Origin: Chthoniobacterales bacterium
Lineage (GTDB): Bacteria > Verrucomicrobiota > Verrucomicrobiia > Chthoniobacterales > JACTMZ01
NCBI GenBank assembly: GCA_014879535.1
Contig: JACSRX010000042.1
Span: 1 to 64,000 of the forward strand
DNA: 64,000 nt
Direction of reading: 5' to 3'
Below, in pieces: positions 4,769 to 34,937 of this stretch. Under the pieces are notes generated by a model, which saw nothing but the letters and a program-made list of their open reading frames with translations, did not search any database and was not told the origin of the DNA. Position 1 is the first letter of the stretch. The number at the start of each line of letters is the position of its first letter. The translations under genes were made by a program, and so were the position numbers.

Positions 4769-5661
4769 GCGAGCGGATCGACCAGTTCATCCTTTACCTC
4801 GCGACGGAGCGGGGGCTCTCGACCAATTACCAGCTGAGCACGCGCGCGTCGTTGGAGCTTTTTGCGCGGTGGTTCACGGAACACGCTCCGGGCGCCGGGT
4901 GGACCGACGTGACGCCCGATCAGATCGGCGCATTCCTCGGGGCGAGGAAGCAGGCGGGTGCCGCTGCGGCGACGATCAAGCTGCACGCCGTGGCCCTGCG
5001 CATCTTCTTCCGGCACCAAGTCGGGAACGGGCGCCTCGAAAAGGATCCGACCGAGTTCCTCACGCTGCCCAAGATCGAGAGGTATCTTCCCGAGACGCTT
5101 GCGGTGCCGGAGGTGGAAAGGCTCCTTGCTGCGGCGGCGGGGGGAACCCCGCTGGAATTGCGGGACCGTGCGATTGTCGAATTGCTCTACGCCAGCGGAC
5201 TGCGTGTCTCGGAGTTGTGCGGGGCGCGCCTGGAGAATCTCGATCTCGAACAGGGCTTCATCCGCGTCGTCGGCAAGGGCAACAAGCAGAGGTTGGTGCC
5301 CGTGGGGTCCGGTGCCCGCGAGGCCCTCGAACGCTATCTGCAGACCGGGCGTCCGGCCTTGGTCGGAAAGCGCACCGGGGCCGAAGTCTTCCTCTCGGTG
5401 CGGGGGCGCAAGCTGACCAACCAGCGCATCTGGCAGCTGCTCAACGAGCTCGCGGGCCGTGCGGGGTTGGACAAGAAAATCCATCCGCACATGCTGCGCC
5501 ACTCGTTTGCAACCCATCTGCTCGAGGGGGGCGCCGATCTCCGCGTCATCCAGGAACTGCTCGGCCATTCGGACATTTCGACCACGCAGATCTACACGCA
5601 CGTGAACTCGCGGCAGCTGCACAAGGCGCACCGTCAGTTCCATCCCCGGGCGAAGGGGTGA
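4765..5661 (+). CDS. xerD: Tyrosine recombinase XerC/XerD
   Basis: SERIDQFILYLATERGLS...; catalytic motifs LLYASGLRVSEL, HPHMLRHSFATHLLEGGADLRVIQELLGHSDISTTQIYTHV; GTG start overlaps purC stop. XerC vs XerD not distinguished with certainty. Confidence 0.85.
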   Translation: MSERIDQFILYLATERGLSTNYQLSTRASLELFARWFTEHAPGAGWTDVTPDQIGAFLGARKQAGAAAATIKLHAVALRIFFRHQVGNGRLEKDPTEFLTLPKIERYLPETLAVPEVERLLAAAAGGTPLELRDRAIVELLYASGLRVSELCGARLENLDLEQGFIRVVGKGNKQRLVPVGSGAREALERYLQTGRPALVGKRTGAEVFLSVRGRKLTNQRIWQLLNELAGRAGLDKKIHPHMLRHSFATHLLEGGADLRVIQELLGHSDISTTQIYTHVNSRQLHKAHRQFHPRAKG

Positions 5662-27658: not shown

Positions 27659-28045
27659 TCATTTCCCCCGCGCCTCCCGGATGAGTTTCATGAGCCTGCC
27701 GGCTTCGTCGGCGGAAAGCCGGACGTTGTCCCCTCCAAGCAGCGCGCAGGCCGCCTCCGCGGGTGAGTTTGCAAAGAAACGCTTCACCACCTCCTGCAGT
27801 GCGCCGCGGCGCGCCCGGGCCACCGGAACCGACGGACGGAAATGATCGCGGCCCCGGACGTTCTCCTTGGCGATCAGCTTCATCCCCACGAGGATGCGGA
27901 GAATCGACCGGACCGCCGAATACGTCGGCGCCTCGGGCAGCCCGCGCTGGACATCACGTGCCGTGCCGCGGCCCAGCCGGATGAGAATCTCCAACGCCTG
28001 CCGCTCGCGCATGCTGAGATCGTCCGGAAGGCCGGGGGAACTCAT
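27659..28045 (-). CDS. BlaI/MecI/CopY-family transcriptional regulator
   Basis: LSMRERQALEILIRLGRGTARDVQRGLPEAPTYSAVRSILRILVGMKLIAKENVRGRDHFRPSVPVARAR winged-helix pattern. Confidence 0.8.
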   Translation of the reverse strand: MSSPGLPDDLSMRERQALEILIRLGRGTARDVQRGLPEAPTYSAVRSILRILVGMKLIAKENVRGRDHFRPSVPVARARRGALQEVVKRFFANSPAEAACALLGGDNVRLSADEAGRLMKLIREARGK

Positions 28046-28085
28046 GGATGCCGAACTGTCAGCATGCATGCGGTGGACGTCAAGT

Positions 28086-28109
28086 TGCATGTTGAAAATT
28101 CAACATGCA
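28086..28109. repeat. Palindrome P1 TGCATGTTGAA-AA-TTCAACATGCA
   Basis: Perfect arms (11 bp) around AA; 41 bp upstream of BlaI-like start; carries compensated C-to-T/G-to-A change versus consensus. Confidence 0.9.
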
Positions 28110-28250
28110 TGGATGAATGCGGGCGGGACCCGTTTTCGTCGTTTGAGGTGGTGAGGCTTCGCGGGAAGCCGCCCGGGGGACGATTGTCATCAACGCGGAT
28201 CGGACAACGAGGGTGCATCCCCCCATGCCGGGGTTCGCTCGGGCGCTCCA

Positions 28251-28274
28251 TGCGTGCTGAAAATTCAACATATT
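28251..28274. repeat. Palindrome P2 (degenerate) TGCGTGCTGAA-AA-TTCAACATATT
   Basis: Same core, several mismatches. Confidence 0.7.
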
Positions 28275-28379
28275 GTCGGGCGATCTGAAGATTTCCCGGG
28301 TGATGACGCAGGGCGCAGGCACGGGCGGTGTTGAGGGCGGGGTGGGACTGATCGCGCAAACCGGGGTTCGGTGTTCGCA

Positions 28380-28403
28380 GACATGCTGAATTTTCAGCAT
28401 GCA
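28380..28403. repeat. Palindrome P3 with core CATGCTGAA-TT-TTCAGCATG
   Basis: Perfect 9-bp core arms; left flank GCGCAAACCGGGGTTCGGTGTTCGCAGA. Confidence 0.9.
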
Positions 28404-28441
28404 TGGGCGGGGCCGCGGCCGCGGTGGTGGCCGGCCAACAG

Positions 28442-28507
28442 CGTCCGGTCGGAAATCGCGGCATCTCCGCGAGCTCACGGCTGCCTGAAGCTGCGCGGGG
28501 CGGATCG
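28442..28507 (+). repeat. Leader module A, copy 1
   Basis: GTCCGGTCGGAAATCGCGGCATCTCCGCGAGCTCACGGCTGCCTGAAGCTGCGCGGGGCGGATCG. Confidence 0.85.
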
Positions 28508-28700
28508 GCATTCATTACCGCGCCAACGGATGGCAACCCGAGTCATCAATTGTCGAGTGGGTGTGGATCGGTTTTCATGCCGAACGACAAGCTTGTCGGC
28601 TGATTGCGCTCCGGCGCGCATTTCATCTTTCACCGATCCCGACACCTGTCGCCCGCAACCCTTGGCGGACGCCGCGCGCAAAACGGGAGCGTGCGTTCGC

Positions 28701-28726
28701 ATGCATGCTGAAATTTCAGCATGCAT
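28701..28726. repeat. Palindrome P4 ATGCATGCTGAA-AT-TTCAGCATGCAT
   Basis: Perfect 26-bp palindrome. Confidence 0.95.
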
Positions 28727-28904
28727 GGGGCGGTGGCTGCGGTGGTGGCCGGTCAACTTCGTCCGGTCGGAAATCGCGGCATCCCTGCGAGCTCACCACT
28801 GCCTGAGGCTGCGCGGGGAGATCGCCCGGTCTGCGCTTCCGGCCCTGCAAGTCCGAGTAGGGGAATTCAACCGCCACGCTGTCGCCCGCGCTGAAGTCGG
28901 TCAT
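28716..28904 (-). pseudogene. Truncated PemK/MazF-like toxin running into module A and P4
   Basis: MTDFSAGDSVAVEFPYSDLQGRKRRPGDL matches PemK/MazF N-terminus, then reads repeat-derived sequence ...VVSSQGCRDFRPDEVDRPPPQPPPHAC. Confidence 0.65.
28761..28828 (+). repeat. Leader module A, copy 2
   Basis: GTCCGGTCGGAAATCGCGGCATCCCTGCGAGCTCACCACTGCCTGAGGCTGCGCGGGG... Confidence 0.85.
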
Positions 28905-29076
28905 AGGCGGCATCTTCCGGTGTGTCGCCGGCGAAGAACTTCTCCAGTCCGGCCCGCTGCAACTCAAGATCCTCCGGTTTGCGCCCGATCGGACCGGGCG
29001 GGTCGCCGTGGAGCTTCAATCGTTCCAGCCTCGGCAACTTATCGAGGGTCTTCCCGATCTCCTGCACCGTGCTCAT
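28867..29076 (-). CDS. Antitoxin-like small protein
   Basis: MSTVQEIGKTLDKLPRLERLKLHGDPPGPIGRKPEDLELQRAGLEKFFAGDTPEDAAYDRLQRGRQRGG, overlapping the PemK-like start. Confidence 0.55.
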   Translation of the reverse strand: MSTVQEIGKTLDKLPRLERLKLHGDPPGPIGRKPEDLELQRAGLEKFFAGDTPEDAAYDRLQRGRQRGG

Positions 29077-29163
29077 GGGGGTCACAATTTCCGCCACAGC
29101 CATCCCCCGCCATCCGTCGCTTCGGAACAGTCGCCTCGCGCAAACCGGGAGCCGGGTGTTCGG

Positions 29164-29189
29164 AGGCATGCTGAAATTTCAGCATGCCT
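29164..29189. repeat. Palindrome P5 AGGCATGCTGAA-AT-TTCAGCATGCCT
   Basis: Perfect palindrome with compensated T-to-G/A-to-C change versus consensus; left flank GCGCAAACCGGGAGCCGGGTGTTCGG. Confidence 0.95.
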
Positions 29190-29217
29190 GGGGCGGGGCT
29201 GTGGTGGGATGCGCGGG

Positions 29218-29281
29218 CTTGTCGGAAGTGGCTCGCCTCGGGCGCCTGGAGTTCTTCAATGCCGCGGCGTCTCGCCCATGA
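29218..29281 (+). repeat. Leader module B, copy 1
   Basis: CTTGTCGGAAGTGGCTCGCCTCGGGCGCCTGGAGTTCTTCAATGCCGCGGCGTCTCGCCCATGA. Confidence 0.8.
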
Positions 29282-29447
29282 AGCCCGGGGAAATCATTTC
29301 GGGCACCGGACGGGTCCCCGCCATTTTGGCGGCTCGGAAAGGAGCACAGAGCTGGTGGGATCGGTGGCAGCACGCATTCCGGCTGACGGTTCGACAATGG
29401 GGGTAACGCCGGTGCTTGTCGTGACTGACCGGGATTTCGGGACAGGG

Positions 29448-29473
29448 ATGCATGCTGAAAATTCAGCATGCAT
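29448..29473. repeat. Palindrome P6 ATGCATGCTGAA-AA-TTCAGCATGCAT
   Basis: Perfect arms. Confidence 0.95.
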
Positions 29474-29688
29474 GGACGGGCGCGATGCTTTTTGGAGGAG
29501 GGCGGTGCACGGGCGACATCCGCGCGGCTCCTCAGCACGGCTGGCTGGACAAACGGGGGGTGCCGACGGGGAGGAGATTCCGCATGAACCATGGCCACGC
29601 ATGGATCGCCACAGCCTTTGCATCCGGGGCGCTTCTGATCCTGGTTGGCCCGCTGAATTGGCGCCGCTTCGTGCAAACCGGGGTTTGG

Positions 29689-29714
29689 ATGCATGCTGAA
29701 AATTCAGCATGCAT
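29689..29714. repeat. Palindrome P7 ATGCATGCTGAA-AA-TTCAGCATGCAT
   Basis: Perfect arms; left flank GTGCAAACCGGGGTTTGG. Confidence 0.95.
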
Positions 29715-29740
29715 GGGGCGGCCCTGCGGCGGGGAGCGGA

Positions 29741-29803
29741 CTTGTCGGAAGAGGCTCGCCTCGGGTGCGTGGAGTCCGTAATAGCCACGTTGTCTTCCCC
29801 ATG
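29741..29803 (+). repeat. Leader module B, copy 2
   Basis: CTTGTCGGAAGAGGCTCGCCTCGGGTGCGTGGAGTCCGTAATAGCCACGTTGTCTTCCCCATG. Confidence 0.85.
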
Positions 29804-29962
29804 AAGCCTGATGACATCATTTCGGACAATGGGCTGGTCGCCGGTGTTCTGGCATTCGGGTGGCACGAAATTGACCTCTGGGTCTGTTGGAGGAATCGGT
29901 GGCAACAGGTGCTCCTGCTGACGACTCGACAAGCGGCAGGAGGTCGAGGGGAAAGGTAATCT

Positions 29963-30841
29963 ATGGATCATTGGAACATCGCAATTTCGATGGCGGTCGC
30001 AACCCTTACGATGTTTCTCCTTCTCGGGTTGTTGAGTTGGCGGAAGAAGCTGGCCTATCAGGACACCAAACTTCCGTTCACCAAACGTGGCCTGCGTCCG
30101 CCGGGGGAATCGCTCCGCGTCAAACTCGAGGAGTTCGATGACAAAATGACAGAAGCGATCCTGTGGCTGATGGGCATCACAGTGTTGTTCGGCATTAGTG
30201 TGTATCAGGCGCTCACCAACTCGTGGCTGGCAGGTTCCGTGTTCATCGCTCTGATGCTTGCCGCAATGATCTGGTGGGCGCTTCATTTCGAGAAGCGCGC
30301 TGAACTCCGCCGGGATCACTACCTCGGATTTCTCGGTGAGAGGGCGGTCGGCGAGGAGCTCAACCAGTTGCTGGCCAAGGGATGGTCCGTTTTTCACGAT
30401 GTCGAATTCCACGACAATCCCGGCGCCAAGCCATTCAACGTGGATCATGTGGTTGTGGGGACGGGCGGTCTGTTCGCCATCGAGACCAAGACACGCCGGA
30501 AGCGGAAAGACAAAGGCGGCCACGAAGTGACCTTCAACGGCCAGCGCCTCGTCTATCCGTGGGGTGAGGAAGATTGGGGGATCAAAAATGCCCGCGAGCG
30601 GGCGAAGCACCTCGGCGCGTGGCTGTCCAAGGAACTCGCCACGCCGATCATCGCCAAACCGGTTCTCGCCTTGCCGGGATGGATGGTGCATCGACGCGGT
30701 GCCAGCGACCTGCGCGTGGTCAGTGGCAGCGAAGTCACAAAAGCTTTCAGCGGCGAGGAATCGAACCAACGCATAGAGCCTCAAACCGTCCAAGCCATCA
30801 AAGCCCTGCTGGATCAGAAGTGCCGGGATGTTGAGGCATGA
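29963..30841 (+). CDS. Membrane-anchored NERD (nuclease-related) domain protein
   Basis: N-terminal TM segments then YLGFLGERAVGEELNQLLAKGWSVFHDVEF...NVDHVVVGTGGLFAIETKTRRK (NERD signature). Confidence 0.85.
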   Translation: MDHWNIAISMAVATLTMFLLLGLLSWRKKLAYQDTKLPFTKRGLRPPGESLRVKLEEFDDKMTEAILWLMGITVLFGISVYQALTNSWLAGSVFIALMLAAMIWWALHFEKRAELRRDHYLGFLGERAVGEELNQLLAKGWSVFHDVEFHDNPGAKPFNVDHVVVGTGGLFAIETKTRRKRKDKGGHEVTFNGQRLVYPWGEEDWGIKNARERAKHLGAWLSKELATPIIAKPVLALPGWMVHRRGASDLRVVSGSEVTKAFSGEESNQRIEPQTVQAIKALLDQKCRDVEA

Positions 30842-30879
30842 AGCCGTCGGATCGAGCAAACCGGGGGGCGGGTGTTCGC

Positions 30880-30905
30880 ATGCATGCTGAAATTTCAGCA
30901 TGCAT
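30880..30905. repeat. Palindrome P8 ATGCATGCTGAA-AT-TTCAGCATGCAT
   Basis: Perfect palindrome; left flank GAGCAAACCGGGGGGCGGGTGTTCGC begins just after the NERD gene stop. Confidence 0.95.
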
Positions 30906-30932
30906 GGGGCGGGGGCTGCGGCGGGGTGTGCG

Positions 30933-30997
30933 GGCTTCCCGGAAGAGGCCCGCCTCGGGTGTGCGGAATTTCTCAAAGCCCGTTGTGTCCGCCGTGG
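30933..30997 (+). repeat. Leader module B, copy 3 (diverged)
   Basis: CTTCCCGGAAGAGGCCCGCCTCGGGTGTGCGGAATTTCTCAAAGCCCGTTGTGTCCGCCGTGG. Confidence 0.75.
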
Positions 30998-31174
30998 GAT
31001 CCGGGGGACATCCGCTCGGACACCGGACAAGCTGCCGGCGCTCGGCAACCCGGCAGCACGGAAGAGAGCCCATGATCCGGTCGTCGGGGTCGCAGCAACA
31101 AGCGCTTCTGCCGATGGCTGGACAAACCAGGTGCATCCCTCCGCCTGTTGGAGACGTCCGGGGATGGGGCATGG

Positions 31175-31200
31175 ATGCATGCTGAATTTTCAGCATGCAT
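31175..31200. repeat. Palindrome P9 ATGCATGCTGAA-TT-TTCAGCATGCAT
   Basis: Perfect arms. Confidence 0.95.
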
Positions 31201-31234
31201 GGGGCGGGGGCTGCGGTGCTGGACGGTCGGCGTT

Positions 31235-31298
31235 GTCCGGTCGGAAATCGCGGCATCTCTGCGAGCTCACCGCTGCCTGAAGCTGCACGGGGCGGATC
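31235..31298 (+). repeat. Leader module A, copy 3
   Basis: GTCCGGTCGGAAATCGCGGCATCTCTGCGAGCTCACCGCTGCCTGAAGCTGCACGGGGCGGATC. Confidence 0.85.
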
Positions 31299-31366
31299 GC
31301 CCGAGTCATTTTGCGCAGGCGGATCTGTTTTCATCCTTCCGCCTTCAGGTTTCCGGGTTGGTGCGG

Positions 31367-31430
31367 ACTTGTCGGAAGAGGCTCGCCTCGGGGGCGTGGA
31401 ATCCGTAAAAGCCACGGTGTCTTCCCCATG
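31367..31430 (+). repeat. Leader module B, copy 4
   Basis: CTTGTCGGAAGAGGCTCGCCTCGGGGGCGTGGAATCCGTAAAAGCCACGGTGTCTTCCCCATG. Confidence 0.85.
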
Positions 31431-31643
31431 ACTCCTCAAGTTTGGATCCTCGCCGGCCTGTTCATCTTCGTGATTAGTTTCATCGGGCAGCTCATCCGAG
31501 GTATCCGTCGCCCGTGGTTGCTTCCCCTCGTCGCTTTGTGCGGGTTCGCGATGTGTGTGTTGGTCTTCACGCAGTTTGCACTGCCACGGATGCAGGAAGC
31601 CGGAATGCGATCTATCCAAGAGGCCGCTGAGCGGGGAAGGTAA
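31428..31643 (+). CDS. Small two-TM hypothetical protein directly after module B
   Basis: MTPQVWILAGLFIFVISFIGQLIRGIRRPWLLPLVALCGFAMCVLVFTQFALPRMQEAGMRSIQEAAERGR. Confidence 0.6.
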   Translation: MTPQVWILAGLFIFVISFIGQLIRGIRRPWLLPLVALCGFAMCVLVFTQFALPRMQEAGMRSIQEAAERGR

Positions 31644-31716
31644 GGCGCCCTAAAGGGTTCTAATTCCTGATTTGCTGGCAACCCCGAACTCAAGAGATTC
31701 ATACTTACCTTGAGCC

Positions 31717-33726
31717 GTGAACCAGTCTCCTGATAATGCCATCCAAGCCCGTGCGACTCCTGCGGCTTATTACTCTGCTGAGGTGGCCGACCTTCTCGTT
31801 GCTTCGCCCGGTTCAATTCTTGGAACAATGGCTTCCAACGGCCAGTTCCCGCTGACAATAGAGCAACGCGACGCGTGGGAGGTGCAGATCGCTATTTTGC
31901 AGAAGAGCTTGTCGGGTATAGTCGGGAGAGTCTTTCTGGAGTTTGACGTTCCGCGAATCGGAAGCCGTATCGACGCCGTTCTTGTGACACCCAGCGTGAT
32001 TTGCCCTATCGAGTTTAAGGTGGGCGAAGCGAGTCATCAGCGCGCGCATATCAATCAAGCGTGGGACTACGCCCTCGATCTGAAGAATTTCCATCGAGCC
32101 AGCCATCGCGCGCCGATCGTTCCCATTCTCGTGGCCACGGAATCCGCTCATTTCGACGAAGCTTTGACCGAACCTCACGCGGATGGCGTCCACCCTCCAG
32201 TCCGTGCCAATTCTCGGTCTCTGCGCCAAATCCTAGACCTTGCCCTGAGTAAGTATGCTCATTCAGTGGTCGAGGCAAATACATGGAGTCGTGCACCTTA
32301 TCAGCCGACGCCGACCATCATCGAAGCAGCACAAAGCCTCTACTCCCGCCATTCCGTGGATGCTATTGCGCGTCACGACGCCGGCGCGCGCAACCTCAGC
32401 ATCACCTCCGCTCGGGTCGAGCAGCTCATCAACGAGGCTGCACGCGAGAAGCGCAAGCTCATCATCTTCGTTACCGGAGTTCCGGGTGCCGGCAAGACGC
32501 TGGTTGGCCTAAATGTGGCGACTCAGAAACGCGAATCGTCCTCGACCCATGCTGTTTTTCTTTCTGGCAATGGCCCGCTCGTGGAAGTCCTGCGCGAGGC
32601 CCTCACTCGTGACGAAGTCGCTCGACTGGCCCAACAAGCCAAAAAGCCACGAAAGGGGGCCGTGAAGCAAAAGGTGAAAGCTTTTATTCAGCTCGTGCAT
32701 CACTTTCGTGACGACGGCCTCCGCGATCTTACTGCTCCTCCTGCGGATCGCGTTGTCATCTTCGACGAAGCCCAGCGTGCTTGGGATAGGACTGCGACCG
32801 CCAACTTCATGGCTCGCAAGAAAAAGCGTCCCGGCTTCTCTCAGTCTGAACCCGAATTCCTCATTTCCTGTATGGACCGCCATCGCGATTGGTCCGTGAT
32901 CATTTGCCTAGTTGGTGGTGGTCAGGAGATCAATCGCGGCGAAGCTGGAATCTCCGCATGGCTCGATGCTGTCCGCGAAAGTTTCCCTGATTGGCACGTC
33001 TACGTCTCCCCTGATTTGACCGACTCCGAGTATGCTGCTGGTCACGCCCTCGAACGCTTGCATGGTGTAGCCAACATTCAGACAGATAGCGCTCTGCATC
33101 TCTCTGTGTCCATGCGCTCCTTCCGAGCAGAGAACGTTTCTAAATTTGTCAAAGCTGTCCTCGACTGCGAACAGGGTGAAGCATCCCGTATTCTGCAGGA
33201 AGTGCAGAGCCGCTACCCAATCGTTGTGACCCGCGATCTCGCCGCCGCCAAGGAGTGGATCCGATCCCAAGCGCGCGGCTCCGAACGGTTTGGTATTGTT
33301 GCTTCTTCCTCCGCCCAGCGGTTGAAGCCTCACGCCATCGATATTCGGGTTGACGTCAATCCGATCCACTGGTTTCTCAACGACGCCTCCGACACGCGTT
33401 CGAGTTTTTACATGGAAGACGTCGCCACAGAGTTTCAGGTGCAGGGGCTCGAACTCGACTGGGCCTGCGTTACTTGGGACGCTGACTTGCGCCATGTTGG
33501 AGGCGAATGGAACTACCACAACTTTCGCGGCAGTCGCTGGCAAAGCGTAAACAAACCTAACGCACAGCAATACCTCCTAAACGCTTACCGAGTGCTACTC
33601 ACTCGGGCCCGGCAAGGCATGGCCATCTTTGTTCCTACTGGTGACGAGCGAGATCCCACGCGATCGCCGGCTTACTACGATAGCACCTACGAATATCTCC
33701 GCACTGTTGGTGTGCCGGCGCTCTAG
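31717..33726 (+). CDS. DUF2075-type DNA/RNA helicase with N-terminal PD-(D/E)XK-like domain
   Basis: N-term RIDAVLVTPSVICPIEFKVGEA (D..ExK), Walker A VTGVPGAGKTLVGLN, Walker B RVVIFDEAQRAWD, C-term LLTRARQGMAIFVPTGD. Confidence 0.85.
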   Translation: MNQSPDNAIQARATPAAYYSAEVADLLVASPGSILGTMASNGQFPLTIEQRDAWEVQIAILQKSLSGIVGRVFLEFDVPRIGSRIDAVLVTPSVICPIEFKVGEASHQRAHINQAWDYALDLKNFHRASHRAPIVPILVATESAHFDEALTEPHADGVHPPVRANSRSLRQILDLALSKYAHSVVEANTWSRAPYQPTPTIIEAAQSLYSRHSVDAIARHDAGARNLSITSARVEQLINEAAREKRKLIIFVTGVPGAGKTLVGLNVATQKRESSSTHAVFLSGNGPLVEVLREALTRDEVARLAQQAKKPRKGAVKQKVKAFIQLVHHFRDDGLRDLTAPPADRVVIFDEAQRAWDRTATANFMARKKKRPGFSQSEPEFLISCMDRHRDWSVIICLVGGGQEINRGEAGISAWLDAVRESFPDWHVYVSPDLTDSEYAAGHALERLHGVANIQTDSALHLSVSMRSFRAENVSKFVKAVLDCEQGEASRILQEVQSRYPIVVTRDLAAAKEWIRSQARGSERFGIVASSSAQRLKPHAIDIRVDVNPIHWFLNDASDTRSSFYMEDVATEFQVQGLELDWACVTWDADLRHVGGEWNYHNFRGSRWQSVNKPNAQQYLLNAYRVLLTRARQGMAIFVPTGDERDPTRSPAYYDSTYEYLRTVGVPAL

Positions 33727-33802
33727 CAGAAAACAAGCCCGTGGTTGCAACGGAAGTGATGGCTTGCCGACATAAGCCGTCCTGGCCAGGTGTAGTGGCA
33801 TT

Positions 33803-34105
33803 ATGAGTCATCGAACTCCTCAGAAATCGCAGGATGGCTTTTGCATTCTTATCGACACCCTCTGCGAGGGACCAGTGCCGATAATTCGTATTGATGATCG
33901 CTATCTTGTTTTTGACACCGAGTTGGAGGCCCAGAAGGAAATCGCCGATGATCTGATGACTCGGCTCCAACAGTTCATGGATGGCGAGAGAGACTTCGAT
34001 GATGCGATGACCGTGGAGGAATACATTGTGCCGGTGACGGTTCACCCCGATGGCGTAATTGTCGACGAGGCAGGCAATCGTTTTGACCCGAAGGTTGATT
34101 GGTAG
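33803..34105 (+). CDS. Small acidic hypothetical protein
   Basis: 100 aa ORF between DUF2075 helicase and Vsr fragment. Confidence 0.5.
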   Translation: MSHRTPQKSQDGFCILIDTLCEGPVPIIRIDDRYLVFDTELEAQKEIADDLMTRLQQFMDGERDFDDAMTVEEYIVPVTVHPDGVIVDEAGNRFDPKVDW

Positions 34106-34114
34106 GAGGTAGCT

Positions 34115-34507
34115 GTGCTCGCAGACGGCTGTTTCTGGCACGGGCGTCCGACGTGCTACACGCGGCCGAAGACGAACCGTGCGTTCTGGGACAAGAAGCG
34201 TGAGGACAACATGGCCCGCGACCGGCGCGTGAACCGCGAACTCCGCGCCCGCGGTTGGCAGGTGATCCGCATCTGGGAGCATGCGCTGAAGAAATCGCCC
34301 CATGCTTGCATCGCGCGCATCCGCCGGGCGTTGGAGGGGAAGCCAAAGAACTGGAAAACTGAAATGCTGAAAGCTGAGCCGAGTCTGCGAGACGGGCCTG
34401 AGGCAAAGCGGAAACCTGAAAAGCGGAAAGCTGAGTCGAATGTGATCCGGCTGCATGAGCCGCGGGTTTGCGTCGGGAGCGGGGGAGGGGTAGGATTGCA
34501 GGCATGA
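34115..34507 (+). pseudogene. vsr: Very short patch repair (Vsr) endonuclease, 5'-truncated
   Basis: LADGCFWHGRPTCYTRPKTNRAFWDKKREDNMARDRRVNRELRARGWQVIRIWEHAL matches the Vsr C-terminal half; N-terminal half including the catalytic Asp region absent. Confidence 0.75.
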
Positions 34508-34680
34508 GCACCGCGGTTCTTGAACTGATGGAGAAGGTCGAGCGTCTCACTCCCGAGGAGCGGGCCGAACTCATGCAGCTTCTTGAGGACATCGAGGACA
34601 ACGCCTTGGCGGACAAAGCGGAGGCGGCTGGTGGTTGGACCTCGCTGGCTGAGCTCAAAAAGGAACTGGGCCGCGCATGA
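34504..34680 (+). CDS. Antitoxin of RelE/ParE-type TA system
   Basis: MSTAVLELMEKVERLTPEERAELMQLLEDIED..., overlaps toxin start by ATGA. Confidence 0.75.
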   Translation: MSTAVLELMEKVERLTPEERAELMQLLEDIEDNALADKAEAAGGWTSLAELKKELGRA

Positions 34681-34937
34681 CTTGGGAGGTCGTCTTCAGC
34701 GACGCTTCCAAGAAGTTTCTCAAGAAGCTTCGCGATGCGGCGCTGCTCGACCGCCTCCTTGCGGCGACGACCAAACTAGCTTCAGATCCCCGGCCCTCGG
34801 GATGCCGAAAGCTTGCCGGAACGGACGACCGTTACCGCATTCGTGTGGGCAATTACAGGATCATCTATCGGATCGATGACGGGCGAGTGACCGTGTTGGT
34901 GCTGGTGATCGGCCATCGCCGCGAGGTTTATGGGTGA
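34677..34937 (+). CDS. RelE/ParE family toxin
   Basis: WEVVFSDASKKFLKKL...CRKLAGTDDRYRIRVGNYRIIYRIDDGRVTVLVLVIGHRREVYG. Confidence 0.9.
   Translation: MTWEVVFSDASKKFLKKLRDAALLDRLLAATTKLASDPRPSGCRKLAGTDDRYRIRVGNYRIIYRIDDGRVTVLVLVIGHRREVYG

Follow-up and report, generated by a model that had tools for sequence, protein, structure and literature searches.

A single-locus array of nine palindromes beside an orphan blaI gene, read as putative BlaI operators copied by duplication

Introduction

Nine palindromes with a common core follow one another in a short segment of the window, the 64,000-nucleotide stretch of DNA analysed here, and the first of them lies next to a divergent gene for a BlaI/MecI-type repressor. 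What are these sites, and how did they come to be repeated? The first-pass annotation had offered three answers: a cassette system, a REP/RAYT-type element family and an expanding regulatory repeat. The third fits the data well, and the operator pairs found at related blaI genes point to the adjacent BlaI as the candidate regulator. We consider it probable (about 0.8) that the nine palindromes are putative operators of this BlaI that were copied by duplication. For one BlaI-BlaR1 clade, the locus offers an operator code that can be tested and that departs from the TACA/TGTA dyad of textbooks; it is also a natural example of a sensor-less repressor that kept, or gained, many operators. The origin of repressor arrays can be studied here, as can the question of whether such arrays act in silencing or buffering or simply persist.

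Results

Nine palindromes cluster at one locus

A pattern search of the window identified nine palindromes between 28085 and 31200, with the core TGYTGA-WWWW-TCARCA (P1-P9, Table 1). The 26-mer ATGCATGCTGAAWWTTCAGCATGCAT gave 8 window matches at <=3 mismatches, against 0 in 100 shuffles. The core TGYTGAWWWWTCARCA has exactly nine matches across the 3.17-Mb genome, every one inside the cluster, and the reversed TGYTGAWWWWTCARCA control pattern has zero matches genome-wide; the array described in the first-pass annotation is therefore real. The single orientation reported for the flanks was also borne out. The left flank GCAAACCGGG..GTGTTCGC, which had been assigned to all copies, is present at P3, P4, P5 and P8 and partly at P7, and is missing from P1, P2, P6 and P9.

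The array was not found in 56 relatives, 10 of them congeners, and the exact 22-mer palindrome had no match among GTDB genome contigs. Among the 385 class genomes scanned, there was no other array and no other genome with more than four sites. The array region matched no RNA family in Rfam. A plasmid origin was also considered and gave no DNA match.

Table 1. Coordinates of the palindromes, genes and repeated modules at the blaI locus (window positions)
Feature	Position	Strand	Core start	Remarks
blaI	27659..28045	-		BlaI/MecI-type (Penicillinase_R, PF03965) repressor, 128 aa; divergent from array
op2	28049..28064	.		Putative degenerate second blaI operator, TGCCGAACTGTCAGCA; directly upstream of start codon; 41 bp from P1
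-35-like box	28078..28083	-		TTGACG of blaI promoter, between both operators; same place as ortholog TTGAC
P1	28085..28110	.	28093	Putative upstream operator (op1) of blaI; paired change GC to GT / AC, dyad kept
P2	28250..28275	.	28258	Decayed palindrome; 6/13 arm positions left; core still TGCTGAAAATTCAACA
P3	28379..28404	.	28387	Operator-like palindrome; 26-mer and core searches
Module A	28405..28500	+		After P3; copies 28727-28826 after P4 and 31201-31303 after P9; 86-88% identity
ParE-like toxin gene, 3' tail	28496..28603	+		Abuts P3 unit end; DNA match to locus L122 of congener G003
P4	28701..28726	.	28709	Operator-like palindrome; dyad perfect across 26 nt
P5	29164..29189	.	29172	Operator-like palindrome; dyad perfect across 26 nt; paired outer change AGGC/GCCT
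Module B	29190..29397	+		After P5; copies 29715-29932 after P7 and 30906-31028 after P8; partial 31360-31436
P6	29448..29473	.	29456	Operator-like palindrome
P7	29689..29714	.	29697	Operator-like palindrome
NERD-domain membrane protein gene	29963..30841	+		Between P7 and P8; PF08378, E=1.1e-13
P8	30880..30905	.	30888	Operator-like palindrome; dyad perfect across 26 nt
P9	31175..31200	.	31183	Operator-like palindrome
Small membrane-protein ORF	31428..31643	+		After P9; no confident family
Schlafen-type helicase gene	31717..33726	+		Downstream of array; PADLOC candidate PDC-S41

Paired sites of the same type precede related blaI genes

A scan of the phylum turned up a single additional 20-mer match, in genome G099, where it sits immediately upstream of a BlaI-type gene. 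Because of this copy, and because the array itself starts at the divergent blaI, BlaI relatives in the class were collected. The comparison set comprised the seven closest BlaI orthologs in the class sample (50-60% identity), together with the relative in G664 and a paralog in G049. Analysis of these loci revealed that all nine carry two TGYTGA-W4-TCARCA palindromes, 37-43 bp apart, just upstream of blaI; a TTGAC-like -35 box lies between the paired sites, and the second site adjoins the start codon. The pair represents the only sites genome-wide in 5/7 ortholog genomes, while G049 has a second site pair at another blaI and G270 has one additional site. The dyad centre varies solely within A/T, in the array and the orthologs alike. 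The blaI promoter in the window has the ortholog layout: P1 takes the op1 position, and op2, which lies 41 bp from it, is degenerate; this degeneration may have weakened blaI autoregulation. The literature searched, in which subscription journals were mostly outside coverage, describes no such BlaI operators.

A related palindrome, TGCTAAAATTTTAGCA, lies near the more distantly related blaI genes of G460 and G445; such palindromes (loci L046 and L053) suggest a family of related operator codes.

The repressor belongs to the BlaI/MecI family and lacks its usual partner

The Penicillinase_R domain is present in the window protein, with a PF03965 score of 50 bits against a cut-off of 22.6. A profile built from nine BlaI proteins matches the MecI and BlaI crystal structures (E about 5e-5), and all nine conserve the putative recognition-helix stretch YSAVRS..LR. 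The single-sequence AlphaFold model was poor (pLDDT 43.6) and was left unused. An M56 BlaR1-type gene follows blaI in all seven related loci checked; the blaI neighbour here is luxC. The M56 sensor family (PF05569) has no match in the genome of the array, which is 95.9% complete, so the gene could be missing from the assembly. In this 95.9%-complete genome, the window BlaI is an orphan repressor without the usual BlaR1 partner.

The layout resembles the BlaI/MecI-BlaR1/MecR1 systems of Staphylococcus in its Penicillinase_R repressor and in the two dyad operators upstream of blaI. The M56 sensor gene follows in the relatives as well, whereas here there is no BlaR1 and there are nine sites. The studied BlaI/MecI operator is a TACA/TGTA dyad (PMC7253601), and the dyad found here is TGYTGA-W4-TCARCA instead. 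Judged by sequence, the window protein belongs to the BlaI/MecI family and its putative operator type does not, TACA/TGTA being specific to the clade of those members that have been studied. CopY/CopR repressors, a homologous family, likewise use paired operators, with the sequence RNYKACANNTGTMRNY (PMC7253601); this sequence differs from that of the array, and no array is described in that study.

Cores are kept while flanks diverge

Comparison of P3-P9 showed that 16 core positions are invariant while the aligned flank columns vary. The permutation P values for core against flanks were 4e-4, 1e-4 and <5e-6 in three groupings, under a test that assumes independent columns. In ungapped comparison, identity is 1.0 in the core and has dropped to about 0.35 by 26-50 nt. 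The paired changes in P1 and P5 preserve the dyad. The core invariance suggests selection for binding of a dimeric repressor, and could come partly from gene conversion, quasi-palindrome correction or palindrome-directed repair.

The array grew by segmental duplication within a putative island

Alignment of the array revealed that segments of about 400-500 nt, each carrying two operators, are related to one another (P8-P9 against P5-P6, 69%; P8-P9 against P3-P4, 65%), so that the true repeat is longer than the palindrome-to-palindrome unit of the first-pass annotation. Two types of right flank are present: P3, P4 and P9 are followed by module A, and P5, P7 and P8 by module B. Module A has three copies in the genome, and no copy of either module lies elsewhere in it. 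The array grew by tandem segmental duplication, as opposed to the exchange of one gene with one site.

The spacers had been described as carrying small ORFs or complete genes. The NERD gene is real and intact, and its stop codon lies just ahead of a left flank, as had been noted; most other spacer ORFs are unconvincing. Relatives of the NERD protein were sought by pattern, and none was confirmed. In congener G003 (L122), the ParE-like ORF is intact and matches PF24732, and the window tail was read as homologous to it. Remnants on the minus strand at about 28827-29100, PemK-like and antitoxin-like by eye, matched no family. An ORF at 29584-29680 starts, by eye, like the NERD N-terminal membrane segment and is truncated by the left flank of P7; it has no family match.

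The gene order nuo-infA-luxC to the left of blaI is common to congeners, while none of blaI, the array, the NERD gene or the helicase gene lies beside luxC in them. GC content drops from about 0.67 to 0.55 over 28-34 kb, and this drop suggests that the stretch is an acquired island. In the low-GC part at 31717-34937, the Schlafen-type helicase is accompanied by a ParE toxin at 34677 and, at 34115, by a partial Vsr-like ORF.

Possible roles of the array

In the scheme that we propose, P1 and the degenerate second site would be the blaI promoter's own operators, and tandem duplication of segments that bear operators would have given rise to the other eight sites, in a 3-kb stretch that also contains gene remnants, the repressor having presumably lost its BlaR1 partner meanwhile. 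BlaI dimers would sit on the array sites and would most likely repress transcription through the NERD-helicase island; titration of BlaI would be a side effect. No sigma-70 promoter was recognisable at the array sites (one match, at 31710, against 0.6 expected), which indicates that they are not ordinary promoter operators. A silencing role of the array, taken alone, is a tentative proposal that we rate at somewhat under an even chance. Mycobacteriophage stoperators provide a parallel: they are numerous repressor sites, most of which share an orientation and most of which are not near promoters (PMC6550527). They are 13-14 bp long, without dyad symmetry, bound by monomers and spread phage genome-wide, whereas the sites here are 16-26 bp, symmetric and tandem-duplicated. 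The fuller analogy, in which a BlaR1-free chromosomal BlaI-type repressor would silence the NERD/Schlafen-helicase island locally from an amplified operator array, with a stoperator-like effect, is doubtful as a whole.

Alternatively, the eight extra operators would chiefly titrate BlaI and set the threshold of its autoregulation without BlaR1, leaving nearby genes unregulated. The orphan state of the repressor, the many well-kept sites without nearby promoters and the centre-to-centre distances, which from the coordinates have no regular helical spacing, are consistent with such a sponge, but a sponge would not require location in a single island or the longer shared flanks, and we regard it as possible though rather unlikely. 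The array may equally be a passive leftover, a duplicated ancestral operator segment in decay whose palindromes are kept by palindrome-directed repair or gene conversion and not by selection, to which we give the same limited weight. The decay of P2, the degeneracy of op2 and the gene remnants in the spacers point this way; against it, seven cores out of nine show no change at 16 positions with flanks 26-50 nt away largely randomised, and the permitted changes mimic those in orthologous operators. The favoured order is local repression of the island, then the sponge, then passive decay, and the data do not separate the three.

Cassette and mobile-repeat readings

Under the cassette reading, each unit would combine a gene with a recombination site and be exchanged by an integrase, as in a degenerate integron array. 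The resemblance to integron cassette arrays includes a repeated site between ORFs, toxin-antitoxin-like content, here as remnants among the spacers, and integrases elsewhere in the genome, which encodes two integron integrases. The left flank CAAACCGG..GTTCG is faintly like congener attC ends (CAAACCGGACCA..GCGTTCGG), a likeness of short words only. Unlike in such arrays, no attC fold was found here and there is no adjacent integrase, the first-pass annotation having itself remarked on the lack of an attC consensus and of an adjacent integrase; both integrases are on other contigs (C38 and C70) than the array (C83). A scan of the window found no R''/R' pairing, with settings too strict to recover real attC sites in locus L133 of congener G004; a direct search, the weightier test, found the attC sequence of that congener absent from the window. 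Moreover, the flank is just about 26 nt long, the duplication unit is a two-site segment, the spacers are partly gene remnants, and nine loci have the same sites at blaI promoters, as promoter operators by position and with no cassette. The cassette reading is thus unsupported, and we consider it very improbable.

The least probable reading is that of a mobile repeat (REP/RAYT or MITE) with an operator inside it by chance: the right ends of the units are fairly sharp against gene remnants, but neither the rest of the genome nor ten congeners have a copy, save a 38-bp ParE-gene match, no terminal inverted repeats were seen by eye, and restriction of the repeat to one locus, without dispersed copies, weakens the REP/RAYT suggestion.

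The two integron integrases (G000:C38:2445-3389 and G000:C70:11562-12503) are on short contigs and score above the curated TIGR02249 cut-off. A tyrosine recombinase at 4852-5616 of the window, 22 kb left of the array, scores below the integron-integrase cut-off. The congeners G002, G003, G004 and G008 also encode one integron integrase each, and in G004 an integron integrase adjoins a cassette array whose attC sites are clear (L133, G004:C46, 4290-9269).
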